Assembly: GCA_021785795.1 (NCBI GenBank)
Contig: JAJYEK010000092.1
Span: 1 to 13,865, forward strand
From: Pseudomonadota bacterium
Lineage (GTDB): Bacteria; Pseudomonadota; Gammaproteobacteria; Acidiferrobacterales; UBA6901
Direction of reading: 5' to 3'
Length of the DNA stretch: 13,865 bases
The position numbers were made by a program, and so were the translations under genes. Every line of letters starts with the position of its first letter. Within the stretch, counting starts at the first letter, position 1. Shown piece after piece: positions 5,128-13,865 of this stretch. The notes under the pieces are model-generated. The model was not told where the DNA came from and ran no database searches. It saw only the letters and a program-made list of their open reading frames with translations.

Positions 5128-5553
5128 ATGCAATTTCGCGCGAAGCGGACCGAAGAACCGGAGATCAACCTCATTCCGTTGATCGACGTGCTGCTGATGA
5201 CGTTGATCTTCCTGCTGATGACCACCAGCTTCTCGAAGGAGGCACAGCTGCGGCTGCAGCTGCCGAGCGCGCACGCGCAATCGAAGCCGCAGGCCGCGAC
5301 GCTGCGCATCGTGATCGATGCCGGCGGGCAGTATTTCATCGGCGGCAAGGCGCTGCTCAATACCAGCGAGAGCGTGCTGCGGCAGGCCATGGCGGAAGCA
5401 GCGGGCGCGCAGAAGAATCCGGTGGTGATCATCGAGGCCGACCGGCGGACACCGGAGGGTGCGGTGGTCGAAGTCATGGACGTTGCGCGCCAGCTCGGGT
5501 TCGTTCACCTGACCTTCGCCACGCAGAAAGCCTCTGGCGGCTCCACGCCGTGA
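5128..5553 (+). CDS. exbD: ExbD/TolR-family biopolymer transport protein
   Basis: Partner of ExbB: one N-terminal membrane helix and a periplasmic domain. The 141 residues show a short cytosolic start, then PEINLIPLIDVLLMTLIFLL (11-30), in which D20 is the proton-carrying aspartate invariant in ExbD/TolR. A periplasmic domain of about 100 residues follows, with LRIVIDAGGQYFIGG and an ending VMDVARQLGFVHLTFAT typical of the family. GAGG at 5117-5120 precedes the ATG at a good distance. Its TGA stop overlaps the GTG of msbA (GTGA), so exbB, exbD and msbA look translationally linked. Confidence 0.93.
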   Translation: MQFRAKRTEEPEINLIPLIDVLLMTLIFLLMTTSFSKEAQLRLQLPSAHAQSKPQAATLRIVIDAGGQYFIGGKALLNTSESVLRQAMAEAAGAQKNPVVIIEADRRTPEGAVVEVMDVARQLGFVHLTFATQKASGGSTP

Positions 5554-7319
5554 GTGCCGACCGGGAGGGCCGGCAGCCGGACTCGGGTGCGGGCGTCTAC
5601 CGCAGACTGCTGAGTTACGCCTGGCCCTACCGTGGCCGCTTCCTGCTGGCGGTCGTGAGCATGGCCGTCACATCCGGCACCGAGACCGGATTCGCCTGGC
5701 TCATGAAGCCGCTGATCAATAGCGGTTTTGTGAAGAGCGATCCGCATAGTATCCGCTATATTCCGCCGCTCATCGTCGGCATTTTTCTGGCGCGGGGGCT
5801 GTTCGGATTCCTGGCGAACTACGTCATGACGTGGATCGGGCGCACGATCATATTTCATCTGCGCAACAGCATGTTCTCGCGGCTCGTGCACCTGCCCAGC
5901 CGGTTCTACGACAACAATTCCTCGAGTCTTCTGATCTCCAAGGTCATCTACGATGTGGAGCAGGTGATGTCGGCGACCACCAAGGCCGTGTCTTCGGTGG
6001 TCAAGGACAGCCTGTCGCTCATCGGCCTTATCGGTCTGATGATCTATTACAGCTGGCGGCTGACTCTCATCATGCTGCTCGTGGCACCGGTCATATCATT
6101 TGCGGTAACGAAGATCAGCCGCCGCTTCCGTAAATCGAGCCATCTGATCCAGCAGTCCATGGGTGAAATCACGCATGCGGTGCAGGAAGCCATCGACGGC
6201 CAGCGGGTGGTCAAGACCTTCTGTGCGCAGGATCGCGAGATCGCGGCCTTCGGGCAGGTCAATGGCCGCAACCAGCGCTACGTCATGAAGAAGGCCACGA
6301 CCTCCGCGCTCAACGTCCCGGTGATCGAGTTGCTGTCGGCCATCGGCATCGCTATCGCCATCTATGCGGCAATACAGGAGGCCGCCGCCCATCTCATGAA
6401 TGCGGGCACCTTCGTCTCCTACATCACGGCCATGATGCTGATGATGCCGGCCCTCAAGCGCCTCACCCAGGTCAATGAGACGGTGCAGACCGGGGTGGCG
6501 GCGGCCGGCAGCGTATTCGCGATGGTGGACGAGGAGCCCGAGCCGGATCCAGGCGTGCGCACGCTGCCGGAGGTTCGGGGCGAAGTCGAATACCGCCAGG
6601 TGAGCTTCAGTTACCCCGGTTCGCCGGCGCTGGTGCTGGATCAGGTGTCGCTGCGCATTGAACCCGGGACCACCCTGGCGTTGGTTGGGGCCTCGGGCAG
6701 CGGCAAGACCACGACCGCGAACCTGCTCGCGCGCTTCTATCCGGCCGACTCCGGCGAAATCCTGCTGGACGGCGTCAACATCAACGAGCTGCGGCTCGCC
6801 AATCTGCGCCACCATATCGCGCTCGTGAGCCAGGACACGGTGCTTTTCGACGACAGCATCCGCAACAACATCGCCTACGGTTCCAGCGGGGAGATTGATC
6901 CGGCGCGCATCGAGGGCGCGGCGCGCGCAGCGCATGTCCTGGAGTTCGCACAGCGCATGCCCGAAGGGCTCGACACCGTCGTCGGGGAGCGCGGCGTGCG
7001 GCTGTCCGGCGGACAGCGTCAGCGTATTGCGATCGCACGCGCCCTGTACAAGAACGCGCCGGTACTGATCCTGGATGAAGCCACTTCCGCGCTCGATACC
7101 GAGTCCGAACGCCTGGTGCACGATGCGATGCAGCAGCTGATGCGCAATCGCACGACCCTGGTGATCGCCCACCGCCTGTCGACCATCGAGAACGCCGACC
7201 GGATCGTGGTGCTGGAAGGCGGACGCGTGATGGAAGCCGGCAGTCATCGCGAGCTGCTGGCGCGCAACGGTATCTACGCCCGCCTGTACCGCATCCAGTT
7301 TAATGAACCCCGTCACTGA
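5550..7319 (+). CDS. msbA: Lipid A export ATP-binding/permease protein MsbA
   Basis: Homodimeric inner-membrane ABC exporter that flips lipid A-core from the cytoplasmic to the periplasmic leaflet. The 589 residues hold an N-terminal transmembrane domain (about 18-320, six helices; early motif YAWPYRGRFLLAVVSM) and a C-terminal nucleotide-binding domain. Motifs are Walker A GASGSGKTT (380-388), Q-loop Q428 in VSQDTVLFDDSI, signature LSGGQRQRIAIARAL (485-499), Walker B LILDEATSALD (506-516) and H541 in VIAHRLSTIENADRI. The GTG start at 5550 overlaps the exbD stop, and the 3' end overlaps the next gene by 17 nt. Placement beside lpxK and kdsB supports the lipid A role over a generic multidrug exporter. 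Confidence 0.95.
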   Translation: MSADREGRQPDSGAGVYRRLLSYAWPYRGRFLLAVVSMAVTSGTETGFAWLMKPLINSGFVKSDPHSIRYIPPLIVGIFLARGLFGFLANYVMTWIGRTIIFHLRNSMFSRLVHLPSRFYDNNSSSLLISKVIYDVEQVMSATTKAVSSVVKDSLSLIGLIGLMIYYSWRLTLIMLLVAPVISFAVTKISRRFRKSSHLIQQSMGEITHAVQEAIDGQRVVKTFCAQDREIAAFGQVNGRNQRYVMKKATTSALNVPVIELLSAIGIAIAIYAAIQEAAAHLMNAGTFVSYITAMMLMMPALKRLTQVNETVQTGVAAAGSVFAMVDEEPEPDPGVRTLPEVRGEVEYRQVSFSYPGSPALVLDQVSLRIEPGTTLALVGASGSGKTTTANLLARFYPADSGEILLDGVNINELRLANLRHHIALVSQDTVLFDDSIRNNIAYGSSGEIDPARIEGAARAAHVLEFAQRMPEGLDTVVGERGVRLSGGQRQRIAIARALYKNAPVLILDEATSALDTESERLVHDAMQQLMRNRTTLVIAHRLSTIENADRIVVLEGGRVMEAGSHRELLARNGIYARLYRIQFNEPRH

Positions 7320-8478
7320 TCGCGCCTACGGCAACCGGACCCTGTGGCTGTGGTGGTACGGTCTGCGCGATCGGCTGCGCGGCGACCGCGGACGGGCCAA
7401 TGCGCGCTGGGGTCATGTGCGGGCGCCGGCTGGCGGCGGGCGGCTGGTCTGGATTGAAACCGGAGCCGAAGAGGCGGGCGTGCGCCTGGGCGCCGGGGTG
7501 CTGCGGGCGCTGCGCGAGAGCCGGCACGACCTGCGCCTGGTGCTGTCGTTCGAGCGTGAATTTCCACAGCTGCTCGAACGTGCGCTCGTTGGCCTCGAGC
7601 GCACCGGATTCGGCTACGGTCCGAGCGATTCGGCACGCGCTGTGCGGCGCGTGCTGCGCACGTTTGCGCCGCTCGGCGTGCTGATGGTGGCGCGCCGTCC
7701 CGCACCGATCCTGAGCGCGGCTCTGGAAGCGGCGGGAATACGCTGCGTGGCGGTGCACACCCCGGCGGCGGTTGCCGGGCGCTTCCAGGCGGCCTATCCG
7801 GCCGACCGCGCGCAGGCCGAGGCATGGCAGCAATGCGGGCGGGCCGACTACATCGCGCCGCGTGCCGACCTCACGACCCTGTTGGTAGAGGCCCAGGTGG
7901 ATCCGAATTTCCGGTCGGCATTGTGCGGCGGGCTGGATCTGGCAGTATGGTGCCTGCTTGGCGCCAGCCCCCAGCGGTTTCCCGAAATCGACGCGTGGTG
8001 GCGGGATTCGGGTCTGGGAAGGCGTGGGCTGCTGCTGGTGGGGTCGGCGGCGCCCGCGGCGGCGCCCCCGGGGTGGCTGCGTATCAGCGCATGGAACCGG
8101 ACAGTGCTGGGCGGCGGCAGGGTTGTCCTGGTGGATGACAGCCGCTGGCTGCCGGCGGTCGCCGCCTCAAGCGACGCCATCCACTTGTTGGAAGCCGATG
8201 CCTGGACATTCTGGCAGACCCTGGCGGGAGGACGCCCGGTGAGCGTGCCCGATCATGCTGCCGTACTGGGCCGCCTTGACGCGGACGCAACTGCGGCGGC
8301 GCGGGTTTTCGAGGAGGTGCCAACACTGGCGCAGCTGGAGCGGTTCTGGACGGCGATGCGGGGTGATCCGATCGGGGGGCGTCGGCGTGGCGATGGCCTG
8401 CGTCGGCTGTTCTGGGGCGAACGCCGACGCGCTGCGGATGTCAACCGGGAACTGCTGGCGCGGGTGTTCGCCTGGTGA
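7303..8478 (+). CDS. Divergent WaaA/KdtA-like (GT30-like) protein, catalytic residues eroded
   Basis: Probably a cytosolic or membrane-associated protein with the two-Rossmann-fold (GT-B) layout of Kdo transferase WaaA. What is seen: an N-terminal aromatic segment LWLWWYGLRDRLRG (14-27), ARWG (34-37, cf. KRWGER of WaaA), LVWIETGAEEAG (48-59, in the place of the WIHxxSVGE catalytic motif), an ALRESRHDLRLVL strand (69-81), and MVARRPAPILSAALEAAGIR (128-147), which parallels the METELWPNLL...GIP element. The C-terminal region RVVLVDDSRWLPAVAAS followed by TLAGGRPVSVPDHAA (307-321) parallels the nucleotide-sugar domain, but the HNPLE-type motif is not recognisable. Length 391 is a little below WaaA. 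It overlaps msbA by 17 nt and lpxK by 4 nt, so it is a core member of the operon. It may be a specialised sugar transferase or a non-catalytic relative. This is a family-level inference made by eye. Confidence 0.5.
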   Translation: MNPVTDRAYGNRTLWLWWYGLRDRLRGDRGRANARWGHVRAPAGGGRLVWIETGAEEAGVRLGAGVLRALRESRHDLRLVLSFEREFPQLLERALVGLERTGFGYGPSDSARAVRRVLRTFAPLGVLMVARRPAPILSAALEAAGIRCVAVHTPAAVAGRFQAAYPADRAQAEAWQQCGRADYIAPRADLTTLLVEAQVDPNFRSALCGGLDLAVWCLLGASPQRFPEIDAWWRDSGLGRRGLLLVGSAAPAAAPPGWLRISAWNRTVLGGGRVVLVDDSRWLPAVAASSDAIHLLEADAWTFWQTLAGGRPVSVPDHAAVLGRLDADATAAARVFEEVPTLAQLERFWTAMRGDPIGGRRRGDGLRRLFWGERRRAADVNRELLARVFAW

Positions 8479-9470
8479 ACCGCAGTGCTTCGGGATGGAT
8501 ACAGGACCTCTGGCAGAGCCGGTCGCTTCCGGTTTTGACGCTCATCCCGCTCAGCTGGCTCTATCGGCTGTTATCAGGGTGGCGCAACCGGCTGTACGAC
8601 TGGAGGCTGCTCCCCGTCCGGCGCCTGCCGGTGCCGGTTATCGTTGTCGGAAACATTACCGTTGGCGGAACCGGCAAGACACCGCTTGTTATCTGGCTCA
8701 GTTTGTTCCTGCAGCGTGCCGGATACCGGCCGGGAATCGTGTCGCGCGGCTATGGCGGGCAGGCGAGACAGTGGCCGCAGGTGGTCACCCCCGATTCCGA
8801 TCCCCGGCAGGTGGGCGACGAGCCGGTCGTGCTCGCACGCCGCGCCGGCTGCGCGGTGGTGGTCGGTCCGGACCGGGCGGCCGCGGCGCAGAGGCTGCTT
8901 GCCGTGCATCGCTGCGACATCGTGATCAGCGATGACGGACTGCAGCACCGGCGGCTGGGCCGCGATATCGAAATCGTGGTGATCGACGGGCGGCGGCGCT
9001 TCGGAAACGGGCTGCTGCTGCCCGCCGGGCCGCTGCGCGAGCCGATCTCGCGCCTGCGGCGCACCGATTTGCGTATCACGCAGGGAGTTGCCCGGGACGG
9101 GGAGCATAGCTTGGTGCTGTACCCGGCCAGCCTGCGCAACCTCGCGAGCGGCAAGTCTTGTGACGCGCGGGATTTTGCCGGGCAGGCGGTGCATGCCGTG
9201 GCCGGAATCGGAAATCCCGACCGGTTCTTTGCCACGCTGCGCGATCTGGGGCTGGACGTGCGGGAGCACCCGTTTCCCGATCATTACCGCTTTCGTCCCG
9301 AAGACCTGCAATTCGCCGACGGCGCGCCCGTGATCATGACCGAGAAAGATGCGGTAAAATGCGAGCGCTTTGCTCGCCCCGACTACTGGTTCCTCGAGGT
9401 CGAGGCCCGCCCGGATCCGGGATTCGGCGCCCGGCTTGTCGAGCTGCTGAAGGAGAAGTGTGGTGGATAA
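8475..9470 (+). CDS. lpxK: Tetraacyldisaccharide 4'-kinase LpxK
   Basis: Phosphorylates the 4' position of the tetraacylated disaccharide-1-phosphate to form lipid IVA in the Raetz pathway; acts at the cytosolic face of the inner membrane through an N-terminal hydrophobic segment (about 17-33). The 331 residues are normal. Motifs: P-loop VGGTGKTP (63-70) preceded by [18 protein letters not shown] (88-95), VGDEPVVLA (113-121), [11 protein letters not shown] (151-161) with the catalytic-region DDGLQH, and [13 protein letters not shown] (178-190). Later [16 protein letters not shown] and TEKDAVKC complete the family pattern. The GTG start shares GTGA with the previous gene's stop, and the 3' end overlaps the next gene. 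Its order after msbA is common in gammaproteobacteria. Confidence 0.97.
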
Positions 9471-10936: not shown

Positions 10937-11240
10937 CTTCGATTCCGCATTCGACGCGCGCGGGCACTGGGCGCGGAAGCCGGCCGAATGGGAAAACGCC
11001 GAGCAGCAGCTGGAGCGCAAGCAGTTTTTCACCGTGCTCGATTTTTGTCTCGACGGCCTGCCGCCCAACCAGGGTCGGGTATTCATGCTGCGCGAGGTGT
11101 TTGAATTGGGCGCGGACGAGATCTGTAAGATGCTGGGCATCTCTGCGTCTAATTTATGGGTCTTGCTGTATCGCGCACGTATGAGGTTGCGCGAGTGCCT
11201 GGAGCAGAAATGGTTCATTCCGGAACGAAGCGCAACATGA
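10629..11240 (+). CDS. ECF-type RNA polymerase sigma factor
   Basis: Alternative sigma factor that redirects RNA polymerase to a small regulon. The 203 residues show region 2 (about 23-88: LRDHDAAEDAVQDAVLAALK, then SSVKTWLVGILKHKIIDALRQ for -10 recognition), an acidic linker (94-108, EPFDDETDSDDFD), a conserved HWARKPAEWENAEQQLERKQF stretch (113-133), and region 4 (about 140-190: LPPNQGRVFMLREVFELGADE then the helix-turn-helix ICKMLGISASNLWVLLYRARMRLRECLE). The ATG at 10629 lacks a close Shine-Dalgarno (GGAG is 16 nt away); an upstream in-frame stop at 10590 limits the start, and a GTG at 10653 is the alternative. Stop and next start overlap as ATGA. The bufferin operon points at it from the other side, so control of that operon is likely but unproven. 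Confidence 0.93.
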   Translation: MGSNRQTIVEHGGAPAADITSQIEALRPQLLRIARLQLRDHDAAEDAVQDAVLAALKDAPNFAGRSSVKTWLVGILKHKIIDALRQKARHATEPFDDETDSDDFDSAFDARGHWARKPAEWENAEQQLERKQFFTVLDFCLDGLPPNQGRVFMLREVFELGADEICKMLGISASNLWVLLYRARMRLRECLEQKWFIPERSAT

Positions 11241-11407
11241 TCAACTGCGCCGAAGCGAGCCGCCTGCTCTCGCAGGCCATGGAACGCCCCCTGGACCGCA
11301 AGGAACGGGCCATGCTGCGCCTGCACCTGCTGATTTGCCGCATGTGCCGGAAATTCGACAAACAGCTCGCCTTCATGCGCAAGGCCATGAAGCAGTACAC
11401 CAAATAG
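11237..11407 (+). CDS. Small zf-HC2 zinc-finger putative anti-sigma factor
   Basis: A 56-residue protein that probably binds the ECF sigma just upstream. It holds the zinc-binding anti-sigma pattern: Cys4 in MINCAEASRLL, then H30-x3-C34-x2-C37 in HLLICRMC, with predicted helices around them and a basic tail. No membrane segment is present, so unlike many anti-sigma factors it appears fully cytosolic and could sense redox state or metal directly through the cysteine/histidine site. The ATG at 11237 overlaps the sigma stop (ATGA). The frame is open to 11156 and offers an ATG at 11210 that would add 9 residues, but the overlap start is conventional and gives the usual domain boundary. Confidence 0.8.
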   Translation: MINCAEASRLLSQAMERPLDRKERAMLRLHLLICRMCRKFDKQLAFMRKAMKQYTK

Positions 11408-11430
11408 CCGGGCCGGCCGCGGTCCATGAT

Positions 11431-11458
11431 AAAAAGGGGGCGGTTACCCGGTTGCCGC
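11431..11458 (-). terminator. Weak candidate terminator of the bufferin operon
   Basis: On the minus strand GCGG (11458-11455) and CCGC (11443-11440) can pair around an 11-nt loop, followed by CCCC and five T (11435-11431). The stem is short and 4 nt separate it from the T-run, so termination would be weak. It lies in the 74-bp space between the two convergent operons. No matching T-run for the plus-strand genes was seen. Confidence 0.3.
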
Positions 11459-11481
11459 AGAAGCCATGATCGCCGCTGGAG

Positions 11482-12012
11482 TTACCTGATAACCTCGGGA
11501 TGGCCGTCGGCCTTGGCGGCCATCCAGGCGCCCCGGCGCGGCTGGATCCAGCGGTGCACGATGCCGTCCACCGACAACGTACCCGGGCCATAGGCGACGA
11601 TGGCCAGCAGCATCATGCCCCATACCTTGTGATCCATGAAATCGCTGCTCCAGAAGCCCGCCCACAGACCATGCGGCCACAGCGCGGGATAAGAGACCAC
11701 CGCGATGATATTGTAGATAAACAGAAAGAGCGCCGTCAGACGGCCCAGCAGGCCCACGCCCAGGAACCAGGGAGACACGAGCTCGATGAATGTGCCGAGA
11801 TAGGCGGCAAAAACGGGCGGCAGCAGCGGTACATGGTAGAGGTAGGTAAACAGCATGACGGTGCTGCTCATGTCGCTTACCTTGACGACGCCCGCCCGCC
11901 AGAAGGCCACGGCCACCCACAGCCGGAAGAGCAGCATGCTGACGGGGCCGAGATGTTCCAGACCCTGAGCGATGTTCCGATAGAGATGGTACGGTCCGGC
12001 ACAGCATTTCAT
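11482..12012 (-). CDS. DoxX-family membrane protein of the bufferin operon
   Basis: Four-helix inner-membrane protein of the DoxX family (176 residues); the fourth gene in many bufferin/MNIO operons. Helices are predicted around 24-42, 66-86, 90-108 and 130-148. Family features include LLFRLWVAVAFWRAGVVKV (27-45), FIELVSPWFLGVGLLGRLTA (75-94), and an aromatic loop ALWPHGLWAGFWSSDFMDHK before the last helix. Its precise job is unknown; proposals for relatives include redox or copper-related roles in the membrane. An unusual Cys pair stands at residues 3-4 (MKCC). The start is set by the ATGA overlap with the DUF2063 gene. It is the last gene of the operon. Confidence 0.88.
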   Translation of the reverse strand: MKCCAGPYHLYRNIAQGLEHLGPVSMLLFRLWVAVAFWRAGVVKVSDMSSTVMLFTYLYHVPLLPPVFAAYLGTFIELVSPWFLGVGLLGRLTALFLFIYNIIAVVSYPALWPHGLWAGFWSSDFMDHKVWGMMLLAIVAYGPGTLSVDGIVHRWIQPRRGAWMAAKADGHPEVIR

Positions 12013-12827
12013 GCGGTATTCCTCGCTGGTTCATGCCTGTCTCCGCCACCCGTGCAGCCCGTGACCAGGCCATCGCGGAGCAGTTCCAGGAGAAAGGACG
12101 ACGGATCGAAGCCGCCGGCCCGCCGTTTGGCGGCCTGCTCGCCGAGGCCTGCCACATCCACCCCGGTCAGCATGTCGCCGATAAAGGCGGCTCCGGGCGC
12201 CTCGATCGCCCGCATCGCCACCTGGTCCTGGTCGCGCCACAGCAGCACGCGCTGGCCACCGGAATCGAGCGACGGGGGCTCGGTACCCGCCTGCTGGCAG
12301 TACATCCAGATGTCGAAAACCGGGTAGCGCGACTCGACCAGGCGGACGCTCGGGTGCAAGCGAAGTCCGGGTTCCGAGGGCATCTCGGGCGCAATCCCGC
12401 TCACGGTTTCCGGATCGAGCGGCCACGCGTCCTCCGCGAGATAGGCCTGCTGGCGCGCCCATTCAAGCCGGGCGATGTCGGCGAGGTACGGGACACCATG
12501 CGCTTCGGGCATATCCGACAGAAATGCCGGGAAGCGCGCACCGTAGTCCTGGAGATTGCCGCTGACCGAGGGGTAGTCACGGATATAGCGCGCGGCCGCC
12601 CCCTCGAAAAAATCCACCCCGACGAGCGCGAGCACCGCCGGATAGGCCGTCTTGAGGGCGCCGCTAAGATTATGGAAGACGACATTGCGGTATATCTGCA
12701 GGCGCGCTGCGGGTGCCAGTCCATGGCCTGCGATGCAGGAATCCAGATCCGGCCGGGACGGCGTGCCTCCGGTGACCTGCTCTGCGAACAGCCGCTGGAG
12801 CTCAGGCAGCGATGGCGCGGCGCTCAT
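12009..12827 (-). CDS. bufC: DUF2063 (BufC/HvfC-type) RiPP maturation partner protein
   Basis: The 272-residue protein belongs to DUF2063, whose members accompany MNIO enzymes and are thought to bind the precursor and help present it for modification. The N-terminal domain (about 8-105) has LQRLFAEQVTGG, the hallmark RLQIYRNVVFHNLSGALK (42-59), TAYPAVLALVGVDFFEGAAARYI and NLQDYGARFPAFL. A less conserved C-terminal half includes YPVFDIWMYCQ (168-178). Despite the database label 'putative DNA-binding', no helix-turn-helix is visible here. The ATG at 12827 overlaps the preceding MNIO gene by 26 nt, which argues for translational coupling, and the stop overlaps the DoxX start (ATGA). Confidence 0.9.
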   Translation of the reverse strand: MSAAPSLPELQRLFAEQVTGGTPSRPDLDSCIAGHGLAPAARLQIYRNVVFHNLSGALKTAYPAVLALVGVDFFEGAAARYIRDYPSVSGNLQDYGARFPAFLSDMPEAHGVPYLADIARLEWARQQAYLAEDAWPLDPETVSGIAPEMPSEPGLRLHPSVRLVESRYPVFDIWMYCQQAGTEPPSLDSGGQRVLLWRDQDQVAMRAIEAPGAAFIGDMLTGVDVAGLGEQAAKRRAGGFDPSSFLLELLRDGLVTGCTGGGDRHEPARNTA

Positions 12828-13668
12828 CGAGCATCCTCTCGGCGGTGGCCGCTTCGGCCAGCAGAACCTCCAGCCCCGGTATGTCCTGATCCCATTCGAT
12901 CAGGGTTGCCGCTGGCCCGACAAGCGCCAGAGTCTCGCGGTACAATGCCCATACCGCAGGATCGACCGGACGGCTGTGGGAGTCGATGAGCAGCTCCACG
13001 GGCAGGCTGGTCTTGCGGGTGAAGCCGGCGAGATGAATCTCCTGTACGGCATCCGGTGGGATCGCTTGGATATAAGTCCGCGGGTCGTAACCGTGGTTGA
13101 TGGCGTTGACGTAGACGTTGTTCACGTCCAGGAGGATCCCGCAGCCGGCGCGCCGCGCCAGCTCGGCCACAAAGTCCCACTCGGTCATGGTGGAATGGGT
13201 GTAAGCCAGGTAGCTCGAGACGTTCTCTATCAGGATCCGGCGGCCCAGATACGCTTGTGTTTCCTGGACCCGGTCCACCATCAGCCTGAGCGCCTCCTCG
13301 GTGTAGGGCAGGGGAAGAAGGTCGTTGAGGTGGCGACCCGGGACGGCGCCCCAGCACAGATGTTCCGATACGAGCGCTGGCTCCATCCGGTCAGCCAGCT
13401 TCTTGAGCTTTGCAAGATGCCCGCGGTCGAGCGCCGCGGCAGCGCCCAGGGATAGACCGACGCCGTGCAGGCTCACTGGGTATTCCGATCGGATCGCCTC
13501 CAGGATCCGCAGCATCGGCCCGCCGGCGCAGAAGAAGTTCTCGCTGTGCACTTCGAACCAGGGTATTTGGGGATGCTCATCGAGCACCCTCGCGAAGTGG
13601 GGTGGCCGCAGGCCGATCCCTGCCTGCGCGGGGATCGGCCTGGCCGAAAAGGCGGATGCAGCGGCCAT
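12802..13668 (-). CDS. bufB: DUF692 MNIO-family bufferin maturase
   Basis: Multinuclear non-haem iron-dependent oxidative enzyme that modifies cysteines in the co-encoded precursor (thiooxazole-type heterocycles in characterised bufferins). The 288 residues form a TIM-barrel-type protein with the family motifs: PWFEVHSENFF (36-46), SLHGVGLSLG (66-75, H68), VSEHLCWG (100-107), LIENVSSYLAY (146-156; E148, N149), GILLDVNNVYVNAINHGYDP (177-196; D181, N183, N184), EIHLAGF (210-216), IDSHSRPVDPAVW (228-240; D229, H231) and LIEWDQDIPGLE (256-267). These His/Asp/Glu/Asn residues bind iron in solved relatives. The ATG at 13668 follows AAGG, and the TAAGG overlaps the precursor stop; the longer frame to 13788 is a shadow of the precursor gene. 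Confidence 0.95.
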   Translation of the reverse strand: MAAASAFSARPIPAQAGIGLRPPHFARVLDEHPQIPWFEVHSENFFCAGGPMLRILEAIRSEYPVSLHGVGLSLGAAAALDRGHLAKLKKLADRMEPALVSEHLCWGAVPGRHLNDLLPLPYTEEALRLMVDRVQETQAYLGRRILIENVSSYLAYTHSTMTEWDFVAELARRAGCGILLDVNNVYVNAINHGYDPRTYIQAIPPDAVQEIHLAGFTRKTSLPVELLIDSHSRPVDPAVWALYRETLALVGPAATLIEWDQDIPGLEVLLAEAATAERMLDERRAIAA

Positions 13669-13676
13669 CGCCGGCC

Positions 13677-13865
13677 TTACATCTTGTCCTTCGGTTTCAG
13701 CGAGCCGCCTGCAATTTTCTGGCACAGGCCCGCCGGCATGAGTATGAACGCGTTGGGGTCGCGCGCCTTGGCGTCCTGACCGGCGCACGAATGCCCCGGG
13801 GATTGGCAGTCGTTTTTATACGCGGCATTGACTCCAAAACACATCTTCATGCCTGCTGCTACTTC
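13677..13865 (-). CDS. bufA1: DUF2282 bufferin-type precursor peptide, 5'-truncated by window edge
   Basis: C-terminal 62 residues of a DUF2282/BufA1-type ribosomally made precursor. The visible part has four cysteines: [15 protein letters not shown] (C9, C20), GHSCAGQD (C27) and [17 protein letters not shown] (C48), numbered from the window edge, ending KDKM at a TAA. This pattern of CxG, NDC, HSCAG and a C-terminal GGSLKP is the DUF2282 signature. Family members carry an N-terminal signal peptide and are exported to the periplasm, where the modified peptide sequesters copper (as in Caulobacter BufA1) and may bind other metals; the signal peptide here lies off the window. The repeated EGKCG motif of HvfA is absent, so it is the BufA1 subtype. 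Eight bases separate its stop from the MNIO start. Confidence 0.9.

Follow-up and report, generated by a model that had tools for sequence, protein, structure and literature searches.

Does the open frame that runs off the right-hand edge of the 13,865-nucleotide stretch analysed here (the window) belong to a bufferin operon and, if it does, what might turn that operon on? The initial annotation had read this frame as the four-cysteine C-terminus of a DUF2282 protein with a GGSLKPK tail, lying 8 bp before an MNIO maturase gene, and had proposed a DUF2282 profile search as a check. Translation of the minus strand from 13865 to 13677 yields 62 residues and a stop codon with no internal stop; the four cysteines fall at residues 9, 20, 27 and 48 and the frame ends in the GGSLKPK tail. 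The stop codon occupies 13679-13677 and the ATG of the MNIO gene is read from 13668, leaving a gap of 8 bases. The profile search returned PF10048 (DUF2282) well over its cut-off (65.7 bits against a GA of 22.4, E = 3.5e-18) with all 53 profile positions covered, and the earlier description of the frame thus held in each of these respects. This E value, together with the 297 homologues found at E <= 1e-3 in a search of 5.8 billion proteins (the best 120 of which were listed), argues that the frame is not a product of chance.

The 5' end of the precursor gene and its promoter lie beyond the window edge at 13865. The top relative, a protein of 103 residues (P0002), is identical to the visible frame at 61 of 62 positions, the last residue alone differing (K for M). 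P0002 has a start, and its N-terminus, MKQSNLLLKSALAGVVALGMGGVSQASSAA, resembles a Sec-type signal peptide as judged by eye only. This protein may come from the window's own cluster, though its sequence and that of the window's protein are not fully identical. Among the aligned precursor relatives (43 aligned of 121 sequences), all four cysteines are invariant, as are G52, N54, K58-N59-D60, G65-H66-S67 and A69-G70-Q71 in P0002 numbering. NCBI names two of the relatives (P0066 and P0075) "BufA1 family periplasmic bufferin-type metallophore". Membership in the Buf2 (BufA2) group was considered and ruled out, the NCBI BufA2 model giving 19.1 bits for the window frame (P0001) and 20.9 bits for P0002 against a cut-off of 60. 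A comparison of the precursor with solved structures gave no significant match (best E 0.31).

The genes that follow on the minus strand fit a precursor of this type. The MNIO gene (12802..13668, 288 residues) matches PF05114 at 362.1 bits and the NCBI model NF050167 (MNIO_BufB, "MNIO family bufferin maturase") at 392.2 bits against a cut-off of 310, and its product aligns to the MNIO chains of solved structures, with 3bww the best match and MbnB chains also aligned. Overlapping it by 26 bases is the gene for a DUF2063 partner (PME-type 1, BufC-like; 12009..12827, 272 residues), which matches PF09836 at 80.3 bits (GA 27.2), lies under the NCBIfam HvfC cut-off (55.4 of 142) and has no counterpart among solved structures at E <= 1e-3 in a single-sequence search. 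A further overlap, of 4 bases, leads into the gene for a DoxX-family membrane protein (11482..12012, 176 residues), which matches PF07681 at 52.3 bits (GA 23.6) and is likewise under the HvfX cut-off of NCBIfam (44.9 of 80). Bufferin clusters have a published core of precursor, MNIO, DUF2063 and DoxX genes (PMC12452194), and the order in the window, DUF2282-MNIO-DUF2063-DoxX, is that of the published Buf1 core.

Through the MNIO protein we found 188 loci in species-representative genomes and kept the best 80. In this sample, which was picked by BufB-like MNIO and in which L005, L012, L045 and L067 each lack a gene at the end of the locus or contig, DUF2282 is present at 76 of 80 loci, DUF2063 at 78 and DoxX at 59. 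The closest MNIO match, in a gammaproteobacterial MAG (L001), shares 72% identity, so that at the sensitivity used no close relative of the window was found in the species-representative collection. Family membership supports the reading of the locus as a copper-buffering RiPP locus, and we conclude with considerable confidence that the genes at the window edge are the 3' part of a Buf1-type bufferin operon. The initial annotation's proposal that these loose families form one recognised bufferin locus is borne out by the DUF2282 and MNIO_BufB matches and by the core gene order, with copper function assigned by analogy, and the annotation of the loose DUF genes can be fixed as a single copper-buffering RiPP operon. 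The locus appears to be a typical representative of an already described RiPP class, truncated by the window edge and with a modest regulatory twist.

Several features of the wider set of loci deserve mention in their own right. At 10 of the 80 MNIO loci (L063, L068, L069, L071, L074, L075, L076, L077, L078 and L080) MNIO and DUF2063 are fused in a single reading frame that measures 545-659 codons between stops; the titles of these loci include Massilia, Herbaspirillum, Janthinobacterium, Oxalobacteraceae and Burkholderiaceae, and we found no mention of such a fusion in the available portions of PMC12452194 or PMC13097082. Three MNIO/DUF2282 loci (L011, L015 and L019), each on its own contig, belong to one Rhodanobacteraceae MAG (FW021_bin.3), and the FW021/FW106 sample series is the source of many of the MNIO-locus hits. 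At L101, the minus strand (8633-8896) encodes a signal-peptide-like protein that has six cysteines and CKGQ motifs and by eye is Buf2-like; its gene is directly upstream of the Buf1 precursor, both lying before a single MNIO gene; tandem bufferin precursors are mentioned in PMC12452194. Elsewhere in the window, a plus-strand open frame of 391 residues (7303-8478) sits between the genes for MsbA (5550-7319; TIGR02203, 746.8 bits) and LpxK (8475-9470). It has no Pfam match at 1e-5 and, judged by its position, is possibly a lipid A-related gene.

The less ordinary part of the locus is a stress-type sigma/anti-sigma pair on the plus strand that did not figure in the initial annotation's finding. 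An ECF sigma factor of family TIGR02943 (10629..11240, 203 residues; 245 bits, cut-off 162.2) is followed by a soluble protein of 56 residues (11237..11407) whose start overlaps the sigma stop in the sequence ATGA. The pair is convergent with the bufferin operon, 74 bases separating the end of the small gene from the DoxX stop. The 56-residue protein matches NF052368 (antisigmaE) at 70.1 bits against a cut-off of 50 and zf-HC2 at 23.4 bits (GA 22.2), and carries C4, H30, C34 and C37. These residues agree with the published motif for zinc-type (ZAS) anti-sigma factors of the MseR/HrsE type, C/H-X23-26-H-X3-C-X2-C in a small protein encoded beside its sigma (PMC7907618), and on sequence grounds we predict that the protein is an anti-sigma factor of this type. 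A scan of 11380-11520 found no promoter-like site; the same interval has one terminator-like site on the minus strand, where 0.2 would be expected.

Is the proximity of such a pair to an MNIO gene a recurrent arrangement? A survey of 369 genomes of one class found 39 TIGR02943 genes over the cut-off in 37 genomes, and an anti-sigma gene is also present at 38 of the 39. This count leaves out two TIGR02943 places in G007, a genome reached through an MNIO locus, and L106-L110 (genomes G005, G006, G008 and G010), which were also reached through MNIO loci. Around all 39 genes we fetched stretches of 3.8 to 15 kb, bounded by contig ends and for some places set in length after the MNIO places were known. 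In seven of these stretches an MNIO gene lies 0.7-3.6 kb from the sigma gene; the remaining 32 sigma genes have no MNIO gene within the fetched stretch. Five of the seven linked clusters have DUF2282 precursors (L101, L102, L103, L151 and L153) and two have EGKCG-repeat precursors (L104 and L105), and the layout of the window, with sigma and anti-sigma facing DoxX-DUF2063-MNIO-DUF2282, is repeated in L101, L151 and L153. A generous chance estimate, which assumes three MNIO genes per 2.4-Mb genome and 13-kb stretches and ignores kinship, gives 0.6 linked genes expected of 39 against the 7 seen (P = 3e-6). Viewed from the MNIO side, a ZAS-type anti-sigma is present at only 5 of the 80 loci and any sigma, by profile search, at 35. 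At the close relatives L002 and L003, the neighbouring sigma genes that were tested belong to a different type, and the genomes of L001, L004, L006 and L007 (G001-G004; MAGs of 1.8-2.7 Mb, perhaps incomplete) have no TIGR02943 gene over the cut-off. Linkage above chance, set against 32 of 39 unlinked genes and 5 of 80 loci, indicates that the pairing is real yet a minority arrangement, and control of the window operon by the pair is something that we infer.

On a tree of the sigma factors, linked and unlinked rows are intermixed, with 7 changes for 8 linked rows against a shuffled mean of 7.5, and the tree therefore shows no single origin of the sigma/MNIO pairing. Within a 17-row set that holds the window, linkage is found for 5 of 13 sampled others compared with 2 of 26 outside (one-sided Fisher P 0.03), a comparison that leaves out the window and L106-L110 and whose split was chosen after the tree had been viewed. 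When the stretches upstream of 21 sigma genes were searched for a bipartite promoter, the score reached 12.2 bits, compared with 11.7, 11.6 and 11.9 in three base-shuffled sets; this score is close to the shuffled ones, for which 8 restarts were run per set (25 for the real data), and we therefore claim no shared motif. The best dyad within a locus (in L101) was considered as a sigma promoter and rejected, since it seems to fall within a coding sequence or at its end. At L017, DoxX is followed in the same direction by another kind of ECF sigma gene (7245-7754, plus strand; 169 residues); it has no match to NCBIfam models at 1e-30, and by profile search many of L008-L042 have a different sigma placed in this way. 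The next non-overlapping frame at L017 (at least 100 residues, same strand) starts 94 bases after the sigma gene and encodes 713 residues that by eye are not an anti-sigma factor.

These observations can be joined to published chemistry in a single scheme. Bufferins sequester periplasmic copper via Cys-derived thiooxazoles, with the central cysteines of Buf1 modified and the first and last paired as a disulphide (PMC12452194), and evidence for ordered copper binding by DUF2282 products is cited in PMC13097082. At the window locus, where copper function rests on this literature for other bufferins, we envision a precursor that would be synthesised with a signal peptide and whose two central cysteines, residues 20 and 27 of the window frame (Cys61 and Cys68 of P0002), would be oxidised to thiooxazoles by the cytosolic MNIO enzyme and its DUF2063/RRE partner. 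The peptide would then leave the cytosol by Sec, a periplasmic disulphide would join the outer cysteines 9 and 48 (Cys50 and Cys89 of P0002), and the mature peptide would chelate surplus copper. The neighbouring sigma/ZAS anti-sigma pair may turn the bufferin operon on under thiol or metal stress.

The linkage of the TIGR02943/ZAS pair to MNIO genes suggests that some Buf1 operons are under soluble thiol/zinc control, and we tentatively propose that a Buf1 subset including the window is governed by a soluble cytosolic zinc/thiol anti-sigma of the MseR type, not by membrane NrsF, that bufferin output follows a cytosolic thiol/metal signal, and that the pairing was gained or lost several times. 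NrsF is the anti-sigma named for Buf1 clusters in PMC12452194, and the term "zf-HC2" is absent from the available main text of that paper. Among the matches listed in our literature search, none joins bufferins or MNIO with ZAS or zinc-binding anti-sigma factors; we make no claim that the arrangement is new in print. It is quite possible instead that the pair is an unrelated neighbour serving a different regulon, such as one for msr-type envelope repair, and that the operon's own regulator lies beyond the window edge. The 32 unlinked TIGR02943 genes, the anti-sigma at only 5 of 80 MNIO loci, the lack of a TIGR02943 sigma over the cut-off in G001-G004, the other sigma type near L002 and L003 and the lack of an accepted promoter motif are all as such a neighbour would have it. 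Against it stand a linkage that exceeds a generous chance estimate, the identical convergent layout in three other genomes, and the precedent of Neisseria, where sigma and MseR control their own operon with DoxX-like and partner-type genes (PMC2893595; PMC12452194 on NGO1945). Should control by the soluble anti-sigma be correct, one peptide system may, depending on the lineage, answer to either of two unrelated sorts of anti-sigma sensor, which would indicate when cells choose to produce bufferin; the idea is testable.

The main job of this Buf1 cluster could be to buffer a soft metal other than copper (gold, cadmium or mercury) or to protect against oxidant or thiol stress: the DUF2282 operons that sigmaF controls in Caulobacter are chromium-responsive, and this sigma factor has a role in stress from chromium and from cadmium (PMC3511200), the gig operon is named for gold and its share in copper tolerance is called small (PMC10304878), and anti-sigma factors like the neighbouring ZAS protein have been linked with oxidant stress in Haemophilus (PMC7907618). 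However, the reported bufferin activity is copper chelation (PMC12452194) and no pointer to another metal was seen in the window; we regard a main role other than copper as unlikely and favor copper buffering. Much less likely still is that the frame at the edge represents what is left of a DUF2282 gene after truncation or decay. No more than 62 residues can be seen, but the cut is that of the window edge, up to which the frame stays open, the conserved residues are intact and a near-identical protein of full length (103 residues) exists.

Known systems place the locus in context, among them gigPABT of Cupriavidus metallidurans, whose GigA we take to be the MNIO enzyme. Buf1 (BufA1) bufferin clusters, including CC3254-CC3257 of Caulobacter, present the four families in the window's order (PMC3511200) and, like the window, have four precursor cysteines and a maturase that fits the BufB model. 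The Caulobacter Buf1 operons are under sigmaF and NrsF, the latter listed with 214 residues and six membrane segments (PMC3511200), whereas the window has a TIGR02943 sigma and a convergent, soluble ZAS protein of 56 residues. The Cupriavidus cluster encodes a 94-residue preprotein with four cysteines, GigB (DUF2063) and GigT (DoxX-like) and, like the window, adjoins an ECF sigma gene; in contrast to the convergent, soluble arrangement described here, gig and rpoQ-rsqA are divergently oriented, with RsqA predicted to be membrane-bound, and there is as yet no direct evidence that RpoQ drives the gig operon (PMC10304878). The anti-sigma itself resembles MseR of Neisseria meningitidis, whose Cys4, His30, Cys34 and Cys37 have the same numbers as the window residues, by published numbering and not by alignment (PMC2893595). 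In the rpoE-MseR operon (NMB2140-2145), which includes DoxX-like and partner-type genes, the sigma factor is both part of the operon and its regulator (PMC2893595). For the corresponding cluster of Haemophilus, COG3220 and DUF2063 proteins are given (PMC7907618). By comparison with the Neisseria papers only, the Neisseria sigma and MseR genes are co-transcribed with their operon whereas the window pair is convergent, and the gonococcal product, gonophorin, belongs to the EGKCG class (PMC13097082) whereas the window precursor is a DUF2282 protein.
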